Shown: one piece after another, positions 8,917 through 16,637 of the stretch
Numbering within the stretch: position 1 is the stretch's first letter
Layout of the letters: each line of letters begins with the position of its first letter
Source: a virus
DNA length: 22,177 bases
Reading direction: 5' to 3' (one strand)
Virus record (IMG/VR): IMGVR_UViG_3300028025_000597
Span: 1 to 22,177 of that record
Made by a program: the position numbers and the translations under genes
Notes under the pieces: model-generated
Database searches by the model: none
Seen by the model: only the letters and a program-made list of their open reading frames with translations
What the model was told of the DNA's origin: nothing

Positions 8917-9309
8917 TTATGCCCATTTACAATATTCTGGGCGCATTTCTAAAATGACCAAATCTCCATCTTCATGTGCGTCAGGAATAGTGGCAACATC
9001 TTTGAAACCAAGGTGTCGGTTTAGTCTTAGGGCTTTTTTATTACTCCCTGCGACTGTGCCAATTATAACCTTTAATTTCAAGGTGTTAAACGGGTAATCA
9101 AACACTTTTTTAACAAAGTCTTTAGTTGCCCAATGCTGCCCTTCTGACCCTACATGAATCATGCAAGATTTGCCGTAAAAACCACAATAAACTACTACTG
9201 CTTTAATCTGTCCATTTAATGCTTGTCCCAAATAATGTGCGTCATTTGGAGTAGGCATTTTATGTTTAATAGCCCAATCTTTAATACTTTGCTGATTAAG
9301 CAATATCAA
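8917..9309 (-). CDS. GNAT-family N-acetyltransferase with TTG start
   Basis: This small enzyme should transfer an acetyl group from acetyl-CoA to an unknown amine. The fold signature is present: a beta strand, KVIIGTVAGSNKKALRLNRH (about residues 80-99), then LGFKDVATIPDAHEDGDLVI. The loop-helix-LGF portion is motif A/B of GNAT proteins, where acetyl-CoA is bound. I place the start at TTG 9309 because it forms a TTGA overlap with the upstream hub stop and has a near-perfect GGAGGT five bases upstream (9315-9320). The longer ATG reading from 9351 would add 14 residues (MGFYRLCNGGWRCC) that only mirror hub codons. The product is 130 aa. It sits between the hub and the first ejection-type protein. 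Confidence 0.82.
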   Translation of the reverse strand: MILLNQQSIKDWAIKHKMPTPNDAHYLGQALNGQIKAVVVYCGFYGKSCMIHVGSEGQHWATKDFVKKVFDYPFNTLKLKVIIGTVAGSNKKALRLNRHLGFKDVATIPDAHEDGDLVILEMRPEYCKWA

Positions 9310-11321
9310 ACAACACCTCCAGCCTCCATTACATAATCGGTAGAAGCCCAATGCAACTCAATATTACGACTTGCAGCATTTAAGTTTACAGAGCCTGTAT
9401 AGCCTATTCCTGTAACACCTTGCCAAATCTTTGTAGTAATTAAGCCACCAGACCATACATTTCCATCCCATTTGGCTGTGTCCCAAATACCATCAGACTG
9501 AATACTAGGGTTAAATGAAACTGCGCCTAATTGAGATTGAGTGTCAAAATCTACGCTAATACCGCATAAAACGCTTGGTACGCCACCTGTTGACTGTAGT
9601 ATTGGTCTTACCATAGTAAATCGCTTTAACTGCCCTGGTGAATCAAAATAGCTATATGCTTGTTGTGCAGTTGCAGTAATATTGGCTTCGTCATCAGACA
9701 AATTATCGTAAAAAATACCTACAAAACCATTGCTACCAAAGTGCATATCGGCATCGCCTGACACTTCCCAGCAATAACCTTGAATACCTGTAAATCTAGC
9801 CCATGACTTAGTAATTGTGTGCATTACATATTGCTCTATGCCATTAGGAATAGGAATATTTAATATCAGCATATTTTCAGAAGCAAAATAGTTAATTTGC
9901 CAGCCAAATTGTGCAAAATAAAGAGTTGCAGCTTGTGAAACTGCAAAGTAAATCTTATCTGTAAGGTTAACTCTAGGGTCTAATCGGCTAGACTGAAGTG
10001 CAGAAGCTAAAGGTACTAACCCGTCTTGCGTTAGTAGCAATAAATCGCCAGCAAATTTAAAGAAGCATCTACGGCTAAAGGTTTGACCTAATTGCCATAC
10101 ACCTTTTAATGCCCATGTGTCAGCATTGTCAGGGTCAGTACCGTTATAAACAATAGCTTCGCCCATAGAGGTGACAAATACTGCGTAGTCATCAGCACCT
10201 TGACCTGCGTCTAGCGTCCAAGTACCCATTGCTTGCAAATAGCCTGAATTACGAGCTATTCCGCCAAAATAAAGGGGTGAAGCAACACCACCAATAGCGT
10301 CAGGGTCTAAATACCAACAAGTTAAACTGTCTTCTTCTGTGAAATATAAGCGGTTTTTAAACAAATTGACATTAACAAATTTGTTACTGTTTACGCCAGT
10401 AATGCCTATTGTTGTGTAAATTCCTACTACTGTAGCATTGGCGGCTGGGGCAGTAGCCATTGTGTAAGTAAAGCTACTTGCTCCAGTTACTGTAATGACA
10501 TAAGTACCATTGTAATTAGACTCTGTAGCACCAGAAATTGTGACACGATTATTAGTAACTAAACCATGCGGAGCAGCCGTTGTAAGAGTAGCTGTTAAGT
10601 TACTTGCACCACCTCTAGTAATAGTGCTAATTGTTTGAGCAGTTGTAGTTGTAGCTACATAAAACCAGCGTGTGCCGTCATAAATGGTTACAGGGTCAAC
10701 ACCATTACAAGCTACTAAAAACTTACCTGCGGTATTAGTAAGGTTAACTGACTGAAATTTATCGCTAGAAATACCAGTAAACGCAACAGTAGCAGGGTTA
10801 GCTTTAGTTTCCCAAATGTTTGTACCTGCTGCCCCAAATAACTTATATGTACCCACTTCGGTGTAATTCATCAAAGTGTTAATAGGGGTTGTAGCTTGAT
10901 TTAAGTATGTACCTACTACTGTGGCATTACCACTTGGAATAGTTACTGTTACATAAGTAAATGTTGTAGTGCTAGTTACTGTAATTTTAAATACACCGCT
11001 ATATGCAGCAGGTGTTGTGCCACTAATTGACACATAAGCACCTGTTGTTAAGCCATGTGCTGTAGCTGTTGTTAAAGTAGCTGTTGTGCCTACAAAAGTA
11101 ATACTGCTAATTGTTTGTACGCCAGAAGAAGTAGTTAATATAGACGAAACTGTGTAACCCTTACGCATAGTCACATCAGTAGGCGTGGGATACCAGTTAA
11201 CTAACTGTACTGCGTCAGTAGGACTCATGTTTGCAAGCGAGTCTCTAGCGTTCCAACCACCAATAGGTGCTGGCACAGAAGCCGTTTTAGCTGTGTTTTG
11301 TTTGGCTCTTTGTAATAGCAT
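9306..11321 (-). CDS. Tail hub/stabilisation protein, P22 gp10-like
   Basis: This 671-aa protein would form part of the tail closing the portal vertex. The N-terminus contains VPAPIGGWNARDSLANMSP followed by AVQLVNWYPTP and VTMRKGY, a conserved start I know from podovirus gp10-like hubs. The body is beta-rich with propeller-like elements (KNRLYFTEEDSLTCWYLDP, SMGEAIVYNGTDPDNADTW, LLLLTQDGLVPL) and a C-terminal beta domain. Two related insertions at about residues 70-139 and 229-302 look like duplicated Ig-like modules. The length is greater than that of P22 gp10 (about 470 aa), and the inserts explain much of the difference. It is coupled to the adaptor by TAATG and overlaps the acetyltransferase start. 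Confidence 0.8.
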   Translation of the reverse strand: MLLQRAKQNTAKTASVPAPIGGWNARDSLANMSPTDAVQLVNWYPTPTDVTMRKGYTVSSILTTSSGVQTISSITFVGTTATLTTATAHGLTTGAYVSISGTTPAAYSGVFKITVTSTTTFTYVTVTIPSGNATVVGTYLNQATTPINTLMNYTEVGTYKLFGAAGTNIWETKANPATVAFTGISSDKFQSVNLTNTAGKFLVACNGVDPVTIYDGTRWFYVATTTTAQTISTITRGGASNLTATLTTAAPHGLVTNNRVTISGATESNYNGTYVITVTGASSFTYTMATAPAANATVVGIYTTIGITGVNSNKFVNVNLFKNRLYFTEEDSLTCWYLDPDAIGGVASPLYFGGIARNSGYLQAMGTWTLDAGQGADDYAVFVTSMGEAIVYNGTDPDNADTWALKGVWQLGQTFSRRCFFKFAGDLLLLTQDGLVPLASALQSSRLDPRVNLTDKIYFAVSQAATLYFAQFGWQINYFASENMLILNIPIPNGIEQYVMHTITKSWARFTGIQGYCWEVSGDADMHFGSNGFVGIFYDNLSDDEANITATAQQAYSYFDSPGQLKRFTMVRPILQSTGGVPSVLCGISVDFDTQSQLGAVSFNPSIQSDGIWDTAKWDGNVWSGGLITTKIWQGVTGIGYTGSVNLNAASRNIELHWASTDYVMEAGGVV
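9315..9320 (-). promoter_or_regulatory. Shine-Dalgarno GGAGGT that decides the TTG start of the acetyltransferase
   Basis: GGAGGT on the minus strand lies five bases from TTG at 9307-9309 and is encoded within the last codons (Gly-Gly) of the hub gene. It is among the strongest ribosome-binding sequences in the window. No ATG lies downstream of it until the ATG of KMPTPND, which is too far away. Confidence 0.75.
10416..11114 (-). repeat. Two diverged copies of a ~70-residue beta-domain within the hub gene
   Basis: Copy A (10905-11114, residues 70-139) and copy B (10416-10637, residues 229-302) share the same pattern. Both have TISxIT near the start, then ATLTTAxxHGL, then VxISGxTxxxYxG, then ITVTxxxxFTY, and finally NATVVGxY. 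They read as an internal duplication separated by about 90 residues of unrelated hub sequence. Confidence 0.85.
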
Positions 11322-12232
11322 TATGAGCCATAGCCTGTGTCAGGGATGTTAGCGTAACCAATAAGCACTCTGCTTGCTTGTGGTGCAAATGACAAATTAG
11401 GCGCACCCTTGTCGTTAGCTTTAGCAATAGTCAAATAACGCTGATAATCTTGAGAAACGACTGTAGTGTCAAAGCCTTTAATGCCCCAATACTTCATTTT
11501 TGTGCTTAAAACAATAATTCTGTCATCTAAAACAGTAGTGTCTGAGTCAGCAGTAAAGCTATTCTTAATTGCGCCATCTGCGCCTCTTACCCAACCTTTT
11601 GACCTGTATTCCCAGCCTAAATACTCTTGGGTATTCATAATAGGCCATATTTGGAATTGGTTGTCTAGTATTCTCCAGCGTACTCTAGGGCCTGTAGAAA
11701 TATAACCAGACTTTAGCCATTGCCATTGCTGTGCGTCTTCAGCACCCAACATTTCCCAATGTTTGGACTTGTCCCATTGAGTCCTATTGGTAATAGTTTC
11801 AAAGTCAGCAGGTAAGTCATAAGCAGTTTGAGCACAAACTACTGACTCTAAGCCAGAGCCTGTAGCGTACTGGCTCATTACTACTACTTTTGTAGTGTTA
11901 TTTGCACTTACAACATAAGTGTCTTGCGGAATGTTATAGCCTGATAACTGCCATTGGCTTGTAACATTGCTTAAATCTGTGCCTGCCTCAAAAGTAATGG
12001 AAGCAGACCCATTAACAGTTGTGGCATTGGCGGTTAAAGATTGTGTGTAGAAACGATACTGCACCTGGAGTGCTTGCCAATCATATTCTTTCAGCAAGTC
12101 ATAGCCTGAACCATTCATCAGGGCTAAAATCTGTTGCACATCCTGAGAAGTGTTACCGACTACAAAAGATGGTACAGCCAAGTTTAACTCGGCTGCGGTC
12201 TGTTGCACCATTTGAAGCATCGTTTGGGACAT
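11321..12232 (-). CDS. Head-to-tail adaptor, P22 gp4-like
   Basis: A 303-aa protein that should bind below the portal and close the head after packaging. The N-terminus is helical (MLQMVQQTAAELNLAVPSFV) with DVQQILALMNGSGYDLLKEY followed by DWQALQ, a pattern seen in gp4-type adaptors. The middle contains a beta insert (SASITFEAGTDLSNVTSQW) and then TAYDLPADFETITNRTQWD. An aromatic-rich part with WRILDNQFQIWP and LGWEYRSKGW follows. The order adaptor then hub in the operon agrees with this assignment. It is longer than P22 gp4 (about 165 aa), as is usual for these phages. A fibre-trimming or lysozyme activity is not visible. Coupled upstream with 1 bp spacing and downstream by TAATG. Confidence 0.75.
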   Translation of the reverse strand: MSQTMLQMVQQTAAELNLAVPSFVVGNTSQDVQQILALMNGSGYDLLKEYDWQALQVQYRFYTQSLTANATTVNGSASITFEAGTDLSNVTSQWQLSGYNIPQDTYVVSANNTTKVVVMSQYATGSGLESVVCAQTAYDLPADFETITNRTQWDKSKHWEMLGAEDAQQWQWLKSGYISTGPRVRWRILDNQFQIWPIMNTQEYLGWEYRSKGWVRGADGAIKNSFTADSDTTVLDDRIIVLSTKMKYWGIKGFDTTVVSQDYQRYLTIAKANDKGAPNLSFAPQASRVLIGYANIPDTGYGS

Positions 12233-15366: not shown

Positions 15367-15747
15367 CTATCGGTAGTTAAGTTTTGCGTATGCCAATTCT
15401 GCAATCTGGCGCTTTCTTGCTTCTTGTGACTTTTTGCTCATTTCTGGCGCTTTTTGCTGCAAAGGCACATCGTTGCCTAATTCAACACAACCGTTGCGTT
15501 TTAGGTTTTCTCTGTGCTTAGACCGACTGTCTATCCATGTGCCATCAGCCATAGAAATATGGCCTGGTATGTCAGACATTACTGCTGGGGCTTCTCTAGC
15601 TACCATTTCTTGCTTTTGTTTCCAGGCTTCTTCAGCTTCAGGTGTACCTAGGGTAAACCCCCAAAACTCAAGGTAAAACTCTTTATCAGACTGTTGTTTT
15701 TTTGCAACATGGTTACTTCCTGAGTAACCGCAATTAGGGCAAATCAT
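15367..15747 (-). CDS. Small phage protein with N-terminal CPxCG zinc-ribbon-like motif (126 aa)
   Basis: The product starts MICPNCGYSGSNHVAKKQQS, where C3-x2-C6 and possibly a His form half of a zinc ribbon. The central block ISMADGTWIDSRSKHRENLK followed by RNGCVELGND is a pattern I have seen in small proteins encoded next to portal and scaffold genes in related phages, where it ends with a basic helix, as here (KKSQEARKRQIAELAYAKL). No second CxxC pair is present, so metal binding by a monomer would be incomplete. The function is unknown. The start overlaps the glycosyltransferase stop as ATGA, so the two are translated together. Confidence 0.7.
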   Translation of the reverse strand: MICPNCGYSGSNHVAKKQQSDKEFYLEFWGFTLGTPEAEEAWKQKQEMVAREAPAVMSDIPGHISMADGTWIDSRSKHRENLKRNGCVELGNDVPLQQKAPEMSKKSQEARKRQIAELAYAKLNYR

Positions 15748-16637
15748 AGTTTCTCCAAAAGACTAGGCAATTTATGCCATTCATTTTTACGAAGCGGTAC
15801 AACAGAGTCATACCAAGTACCATGCCGCCACCGCCAACAAATATAATCATCTTCAGGTAGCAACATAAAACATTTAACCCCTAATGCACCAGCAAGGTGA
15901 GCAGTAGCGGTATCGGGTGCAATGACGGCTTTCATGGCTTTCATGTGGCAAGCAGTCTTGTAGAAGTTTCTTTGCCAACCATCATTAGGAAGAGTGTCAA
16001 ACGCATCGCTTTCTTTGACATGAAGCGAATACATATTATCGCCAAGCATTTCTCGCAATTCGTCTATAGGCAAAGACTTAACATAGTGCAATGGGCCTGT
16101 AGAAGCATGCCAATTAATACCTACTTTGCGCTCTATATTGCTTGCAATAGCTTCAAAATAGCCTTCTGAGCCAACAATATGCTTGGCAGTAATAGGAAAT
16201 GACTGTTTTACAAATGGGGGCGCATAGGTAGCAAAATGAGGAAGTGACATAGAGCCAATCCAGTAATCTGCTTGCGTTGGTGGGCCATCAGTCTTTGAGC
16301 AGGAAATGTAATCTATGCAATCCATTGTCCCTAATAGTTGCATCATGGACTCATGGCATAGTACAGACAGGGTTTTAGCACCCCATGCTTTAAGCATTGG
16401 CAAAAATCTGGCAAATTGAATAACATCGCCAAACCCTTGCTCCATTTGCACAACAATGTGCTTGCCAAAAAGTCTTTCACCATCCCATTTGGGGGCATTT
16501 GACCATTTTTCAAAGTTTTCGCCAGTAGCTTCTATAACTTTAGGATGCCACCTATACTCATACAGTCTAAAACCTGCTTGAAAATGTCCTAAGTGAAGTA
16601 AATTTATGCCTTTTTTGTATTGCTGATAAGGAGTCAT
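15744..16637 (-). CDS. Glycosyltransferase of GT9/TPR type, likely host-derived accessory gene
   Basis: A 297-aa protein related to the bacterial TPR-containing, heptosyltransferase-like glycosyltransferases. One TPR-like helix pair is at residues 3-36 (YQQYKKGINLLHLGHFQAGF). A catalytic-type domain follows: WDGERLFGKHIVVQMEQGFG and DVIQFARFLPMLKAWG (51-86), ADYWIGSMSLPHF, KVGINWHAST, and the hallmark nucleotide-sugar-binding block IAPDTATAHLAGALGVKCFM and LLPEDDYICWRW (239-270). In cellular relatives several TPR units precede the domain; here only one remains. It may modify host surface sugars or virion proteins. The donor and acceptor cannot be read from the sequence. It lies between portal and scaffold, within an operon otherwise devoted to structure. 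Its SD is rather far from ATG 16637; a CTG at 16640 is an alternative. Confidence 0.82.
   Translation of the reverse strand: MTPYQQYKKGINLLHLGHFQAGFRLYEYRWHPKVIEATGENFEKWSNAPKWDGERLFGKHIVVQMEQGFGDVIQFARFLPMLKAWGAKTLSVLCHESMMQLLGTMDCIDYISCSKTDGPPTQADYWIGSMSLPHFATYAPPFVKQSFPITAKHIVGSEGYFEAIASNIERKVGINWHASTGPLHYVKSLPIDELREMLGDNMYSLHVKESDAFDTLPNDGWQRNFYKTACHMKAMKAVIAPDTATAHLAGALGVKCFMLLPEDDYICWRWRHGTWYDSVVPLRKNEWHKLPSLLEKL

Follow-up and report, generated by a model that had tools for sequence, protein, structure and literature searches.

Inserted domains are already known on the hub (nozzle) proteins of short-tailed phages, as in SU10, crAss001 and T7. Four small domains, called immunoglobulin-like (Ig-like), are inserted between propeller blades 2 and 3 of the SU10 nozzle protein gp17 (PMC9509320), the inserted domains of the crAss001 muzzle protein gp44 are called immunoglobulin-like by its authors, with IG1 lying between blades 2 and 3 and starting at residue 163 and IG2 carrying a large 'crass' domain (PMC10172136), and the T7 nozzle tip exits the propeller through a blade-3 loop with Y146 at its base (PMC6702177). 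Here we examine a tail hub encoded on 22,177 nucleotides of viral DNA (IMG/VR record IMGVR_UViG_3300028025_000597, positions 1 to 22,177; this whole stretch is called the window). The hub is interrupted by two small domains whose nearest solved folds are the FCCH domain of E1 enzymes and the barrel of phage endosialidases, and we describe from computation the insertion of these domains, their predicted fold, a series of copy numbers among related hubs and the exchange of the domains between hubs. Among the papers listed by a search of one open-access library, no report was found of an FCCH/endosialidase-type barrel at a hub, of a series of 0, 1 or 4 copies with a second site, or of cassette-like exchange. 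The terms FCCH and phage together returned only papers titled on ubiquitin or SUMO, and FCCH with tail terms gave none with FCCH among the matches listed.

The hub was modelled with AF2 from 78 aligned hubs (predicted local distance difference test, pLDDT, 90; predicted template modelling score, pTM, 0.88) and the platform and propeller of a gp10/gp12-type hub were found over the whole chain. The model matched the solved hubs of Pa223 (Z 27.5, 434 residues aligned, 3.0 Å), SU10 (Z 25.8) and P22 gp10 (Z 24.5, 416 aligned, 3.7 Å) and the crAss001 muzzle (Z 24.1), all four above unrelated propellers; T7 gp12 (Z about 19) was tied with those propellers, its match spanning residues 10-671. The P22 gp10, Pa223 and Sf6 hubs share the fold over residues 10-671 of the window hub (Z 23.4-27.5), but their chains are 471-512 residues long and the window hub has two extra barrels. 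These fold matches bear out the gp10-like assignment made by an earlier sequence-only reading of the window, and the hub gene adjoins the adaptor gene within the head-tail block, which is the gene context of a gp10/gp12-type hub. A sequence profile of the hub matched no PDB sequence up to E 1.

According to the strand list of the model and our own assignment of strands to blades, site 1 separates the first propeller strand (residues 55-61) from the next blade (from 146), and site 2 follows the second full blade in sequence (219-221) and precedes the third (from 306/315). Once copy 1 is removed, site 2 is at residue 156, and on the positional match with crAss001 IG1, the SU10 nozzle domains and the T7 tip we take it to be the probable nozzle-tip insertion site, which by analogy would be placed distally. 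Both sites connect the last strand of one blade with the first strand of the next. Propeller topology puts such inter-blade connections on one face, and we infer that both sites lie on one face of the propeller with loops pointing outwards.

The two segments of about 70 residues with the same motif spacing, as described by the sequence-only reading, are real. Copy 1 (at site 1) and copy 2 (at site 2) share 41 of 74 aligned residues (55%, E 1e-20, BLASTP), the motifs named earlier line up in this alignment, and the local alignment scored 186, whereas copy 2 shuffled 2000 times gave 45.5 ± 7.1 and never more than 80. The interval proposed earlier, 10416-11114, covers both copies except the first two residues of copy 1. 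That the segments interrupt the hub as inserted, independent domains is practically certain, given that related hubs exist without them, that the segment folds when modelled alone and that four of them stand in tandem at one site elsewhere. The description as a duplicated pair is correct only in part. Copy 2 is up to 93% identical to the site-2 domains of distant hubs and therefore nearer to these than to copy 1, which speaks against a recent duplication inside the window hub, and the sites seem to have been filled in order. No further copy was found in the other window open reading frames (ORFs) of 80 residues or more, and copy 1 as query had no match in the phage records at E 0.01.

Modelled alone, the segment gave a pLDDT of 95.1 and a pTM of 0.83, with six strands of three or more residues. 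Its best solved match was the FCCH domain of UBA6 (Z 10.5, 70 aligned, 1.9 Å, 27% identity), and it matched the phi92 endosialidase (Z 9.8, 73 aligned, 25% identity) and residues 426-503 of the K1F endosialidase (Z 9.8, 73 aligned, 20% identity), which places the predicted fold with both the FCCH domain and the endosialidase barrel. The first listed match outside E1 and endosialidase entries was a phage head-tail protein (Z 7.2). With these best matches an Ig fold is not the nearest one, contrary to the earlier reading of the segments as Ig-like. No Ig entry recognisable by title was present among the 50 fold matches listed, although the Pfam Ig model He_PIG did match copy 2, weakly and below the cut-off (E 0.0035). 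In K1F the barrel (Pfam PF12195, residues 424-506) is also nested in a beta-propeller (PF12217, 313-754); the K1F and phi92 barrels, however, sit in a tailspike enzyme and the window barrel in a hub, and the binding of polysialic acid is K1F's.

At the sequence level the Pfam family E1_FCCH (PF16190) scored 23.8 bits for the window hub, below the cut-off of 29.5, and 39.2 bits, above it, for a five-copy hub (L321). Most single domains matched this family at E 0.1 or better (33/49), although the window hub is no E1 enzyme, while the endosialidase barrel family PF12195 gave weak matches in 3/49 (best E 0.0052) and PHROG 9998 was matched by all 49 (related PHROGs 5838, 19630, 701 and 529). Three weak matches of the domain profile to PDB sequences, two geranyl diphosphate synthases (E 0.008-0.009) and ribosomal protein L13 (E 0.16), were taken as chance. 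A search for the segment in other phage proteins, as suggested by the sequence-only reading, returned eight predicted viral proteins at E 0.001 or better, with fibres and baseplate proteins among the matches listed, and the domain is scattered over other, unrelated phage virion proteins. In another phage contig (L364, 1056-7715) an open frame of 2220 residues that reaches the end of the locus contains seven domain matches and scores 50.5 bits with E1_FCCH.

Relatives of the hub were found by tblastn in 21 of 50,697 phage records. Among 11 phage hubs that were aligned, nine have neither the segment nor a replacement at the two sites, and the remaining two (Rhizobium phage RHph_I3_18 and Microcystis phage Mwe-JY13) carry an unrelated insert at site 2, indicating that this loop can also take up a domain of another kind. 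This insert has a TGGTSGATG motif and lies within the hub genes at 2785-4602 of L085 and 2794-4623 of L086, respectively. Without both segments the window hub core comprises 524 residues, compared with 527 in phage MW202489, which has neither.

A larger set was obtained from viral contigs, with 425 hub ORFs (window excluded), of which 385 were complete (the 40 cut or incomplete ones were left out) and 277 distinct after rows with identical C-terminal 350 residues had been merged. The numbers of copies at sites 1 and 2 were (0,0) in 66 hubs, (0,1) in 93, (1,1) in 99, (0,4) in 8 and (1,4) in 11, the two hubs with the unrelated insert being counted among the 66; since the loci were gathered with patterns derived from the window and its relatives, using the best 80 per list, these proportions are not prevalences. 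An earlier tally of copy states includes the window twice (WIN0 and L001). Copy 1 was absent from 167/277 hubs, and 19 had four copies in tandem at site 2, 11 of them together with a copy at site 1. No hub had a copy at site 1 only (0/277), although a scan using copy 1 would have favoured such hubs, and none had two or three copies at site 2 (0/277). Thus, hubs with neither copy and hubs with site 2 only both exist with the core kept, as the earlier reading had proposed to look for. Recent tandem amplification was ruled out for the five-copy hub (L321, 2785-5484; four tandem barrels at site 2 and one at site 1), as its copies are only 40-57% identical. The SU10 nozzle resembles this arrangement in having four small domains between blades 2 and 3, but these are called Ig-like, whereas the window family is FCCH/endosialidase-barrel-like, has 0, 1 or 4 copies at that place and uses a second site.

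The order of gain was examined on a quick tree of 152 hub cores, from which the insert columns were excluded and on which many long branches are flagged; the five-copy hub was counted as having both sites filled. Four states (none, site 2 only, both, unrelated) required 7 changes on this tree, compared with a shuffled mean of 72.2. The zero-copy hubs lie outside, and their side was taken, by inference, as the root. One starred branch comprises 89 rows, all of which have the domain (40 at site 2 only and 49 at both sites), and 44 of the 49 are found in one (open) group. The other five (L250, L292, L311, L312 and L321) are placed elsewhere, which indicates either repeated gain or loss at site 1. 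Three further site-2-only rows (L280, L301 and L317) sit among zero-copy hubs, so that site 2 as well was filled, by gain or by transfer, on more than one occasion. The sites seem to fill in order, site 2 first and site 1 later. A tree of the domains themselves lacked the columns needed to root the two copies against each other (6/138 inner branches starred).

The site-2 domains are exchanged between hubs. Three hubs (L021, L025 and L026) have cores 91% identical to that of the window and site-2 domains only 56-60% identical, and conversely L100 has a core 65% identical and a site-2 domain 93% identical. The same was observed in the DNA, where the domain is 78% and four longer core stretches 50-70% identical between the window and L100, and the domain 62% and the core stretches 79-89% identical between the window and L021. 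Over 3828 hub pairs the identity of the insert correlated with that of the core at 0.48 for site 1 and 0.46 for site 2. As a control, all 19 core windows of 75 residues (all within residues 311-655, as shorter core stretches cannot hold such a window) correlated at 0.75-0.92 with the rest of the core. The identities of the window to its relatives derive from a set of 3916 pairs that includes L001, which equals the window; the control sets, including the 3828 pairs, exclude it. The best control is provided by the blades between the inserts, whose mean identity of 0.72 is like that of the inserts (0.74 and 0.68) and which correlate at 0.89 with the C-terminal core, compared with 0.42 and 0.50 for the inserts (73 hubs). 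Identities at site 1 and site 2 correlated with each other at only 0.12.

The domain at site 2 could be divided into subtypes, and these differ in 235 of 448 hub pairs with 88-98.5% identical cores. On the core tree the subtype changes 23 times (91 labelled rows, minimum 2), and the starred branches force at least 14 changes for type A, at least 15 for type B and at least 5 for type C (8 rows); subtypes A and B are split mainly by a three-residue indel, so that part of the 23 changes may be indels and type C is the safer case. What sets the inserts apart is that, inside a single gene, the pieces that are exchanged end at the domain edges. Recent domain exchange in phages is usually seated in receptor-binding proteins, baseplate proteins and endolysins (PMC10684548), and the hub fits at the edge of this pattern. 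The ratio of non-synonymous to synonymous variation (pN/pS) was 0.137 for the core, 0.229 for copy 1, 0.182 for copy 2 of the same subtype and 0.471 for copy 2 between subtypes; both copies are thus under constraint, which counts in favour of the model given below. Variation at site 2 was higher outside the strands than within them (0.96 and 0.64 bits, respectively), with a peak at residue 269.

A working model may be formulated as follows. The two segments are small beta-barrel domains, predicted to fold on their own, in loops between hub propeller blades, with site 2 matching by position the place where other short-tailed phages insert distal tail-tip domains and site 1 a second, later-filled site two blades away. 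While the hub core stays unchanged, barrel cassettes are gained, increase in number (site 2 holds one or four) and are exchanged between hubs. By analogy with solved tails, six hubs might present the barrels at the tail end, where variable barrel loops could touch host-envelope polymers (capsule, lipopolysaccharide or similar) and supplement the tail fibres with a secondary surface for adsorption or positioning. The envelope contact would then change with the exchange of a site-2 domain. For interchangeable tail-tip domains that contact the host envelope, taken as a whole, our confidence is evenly divided. Contact with the host surface appears the most likely role of the barrels, with a probability near the midpoint, in view of the probable position at the tip, the exchange of alleles and the precedent set by the endosialidases. 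A sugar-binding role in adsorption would fit these same points, and a glycan is a possible ligand, with doubt somewhat outweighing belief. The crAss001 authors expect the domain borne by the hub inserts to contact the cell surface (PMC10172136). K1F has three polysialic-acid sites, one in the barrel, called a host-discrimination hotspot in a deep-mutational preprint, with hotspot residues S460, S468 and G504 in the barrel and G730, N732 and G742 in loops behind (PMC12632334). If a weak hhalign match of the domain to K1F residues 447-484 is right, loop 264-270 of the window hub, where the most variable residue is found, would lie between the counterparts of S460 and S468, and this may serve as a lead.

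Several observations weigh against this model. Foldseek of the segment against the PDB gave no match at E 0.001 or better (values 0.02 and up), and the hhalign match to K1F has an E value of 0.079 and a probability of 0.72 on a scale of 100; any kinship with the endosialidase barrel is thus weakly supported by sequence, and the small barrel is a widespread kind of fold. The K1F barrel was reported to be largely permissive to mutation (PMC12632334). The pN/pS stays below 1 even between subtypes and gives no sign of diversification by point mutation. Shuffled subtype labels needed 33.2 changes compared with the 23 observed, which indicates that the site-2 subtype is partly inherited. Moreover, the adjacent adaptor, compared without its extra segment, reaches a correlation of only 0.45 with the hub C-terminal core, indicating that the genomes are mosaic in general and that part of the discordance of the inserts is general mosaicism. 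The SU10 nozzle inserts are described as locking and extending the tail (PMC9509320). Finally, a pattern-limited scan of a genome collection gave 13 pattern matches of which none was confirmed as a relative, and no host was assigned.

The SU10 case leads to a mechanical alternative, in which the barrels, as segments of the nozzle tip, extend or shut the channel, contact hubs, needle or fibre (docking) and rearrange on ejection, with no host recognition. The Ig-like SU10 nozzle domains, four at the same place, stabilise the tail and straighten on ejection (PMC9509320), opening of the crAss001 gate would require the inserted IG domains to rearrange (PMC10172136), four-in-tandem hubs occur in this family too, and the adaptor, which bears the fibre dock in P-SCSP1u, has an extra segment beside most domain-bearing hubs. 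Tight, specific subunit contacts are, however, hard to square with the swapping of domains of 41-60% identity between cores that are 80-91% identical, and 66/277 hubs do without such a domain; we regard a mechanical or docking part as a substantial but less probable explanation.

The same absence from 66/277 hubs would be expected if the barrels were selfish or neutral passengers, that is, promiscuous beta-domains spread by recombination through virion genes and tolerated on the surface with little effect, and this would also agree with their scattering over unrelated virion proteins and with the unrelated insert at the same site in two phages. Against this stand the constraint on the domains (pN/pS 0.18-0.23), their presence in 89/89 rows of one starred branch and the lack of any site-1-only hub among the 277, and this explanation is improbable. 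That the segments are core propeller blades misread as inserts, which the sequence-only reading had itself named as the outcome that would overturn its claim, might be suggested by their being beta-rich and placed among propeller strands, but intact hubs of the same family lack them and the segment folds alone as a barrel, so that this explanation can be regarded as refuted.

For short-tailed phages, explanations of host range usually turn to fibres and spikes. Should the hub, which keeps the DNA inside, bear surface domains that can be exchanged, some of the specificity or of the trigger for ejection may reside in it, and the natural series of 0, 1, 2, 4 and 5 copies on related cores provides a ready-made test set for nozzle-tip inserts of the T7, SU10 and crAss001 kind. 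An extended form of the envelope-contact model is that site 2 is a dedicated tail-tip locus of domain exchange, at which glycan-reading barrels are swapped or multiplied (0, 1 or 4), that the DNA gate itself, in addition to the fibres, determines envelope specificity, and that the four-barrel array evolved separately at the place used by SU10; this we consider unlikely.

Features of the hub region in the window (aa, hub residues; blade and platform assignments are our reading of the model)
Feature	Position	Strand	Basis
Tail hub / nozzle protein, P22 gp10 / T7 gp12 type, 671 aa	9306..11321	minus	ORF; PHROG 5107 (E 1e-93); AF2 model; fold matches
Hub aa 1-67, N-terminal platform strands and first propeller strand (E55-61)	11121..11321	minus	DSSP of model
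Copy 1 (site 1), aa 68-139, 72 residues, FCCH / endosialidase-barrel-like domain	10905..11120	minus	Alignment; strand order in model like copy 2
Hub aa 140-227, two propeller blades separating the inserts	10641..10904	minus	DSSP; aligned in relatives
Copy 2 (site 2), aa 228-302, 75 residues, FCCH / endosialidase-barrel-like domain	10416..10640	minus	Alignment; domain model; fold matches
Hub aa 303-671 and stop codon, remaining blades and C-terminal platform strands	9306..10415	minus	Model and fold matches
Adaptor gene (gp4/gp11-type), 303 residues, directly upstream of hub	11321..12232	minus	PHROG 6013 tail protein (E 3.4e-39); synteny with annotated phages
GNAT-like gene directly downstream of hub, likewise in relatives	8917..9351	minus	PHROG 4470; synteny

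The order adaptor, hub and GNAT-like gene is the same in annotated phages of the window's own family, and megablast of the window against the phage records gave no match. The library label of PHROG 5107 is 'amidase' (lysis) and two RefSeq phage records bear the same name; this label looks wrong, as the modelled fold is that of a tail hub.

Residues of about 67-130 of the adaptor form an extra segment of about 63 residues that is absent, by alignment, from the 238-residue adaptor of MW202489 and from those of Mx8, phiGT1 and RHph_I3_18. Beside 178/181 domain-bearing hubs and at least 25/58 zero-copy hubs the adaptor has about 300 residues or more (lengths counted from the first M of the frame and rounded to ten; of 214 domain-bearing hubs, 181 had an uncut adaptor that could be measured). 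Variability is higher in the extra segment (0.55) than in the remainder of the adaptor (0.82), and the segment may resemble a fibre dock. A 297-residue gene (window 15744-16637, minus strand) located between the head genes and the portal, with no Pfam match at 0.01, has by eye the look of a protein combining TPR and glycosyltransferase parts.
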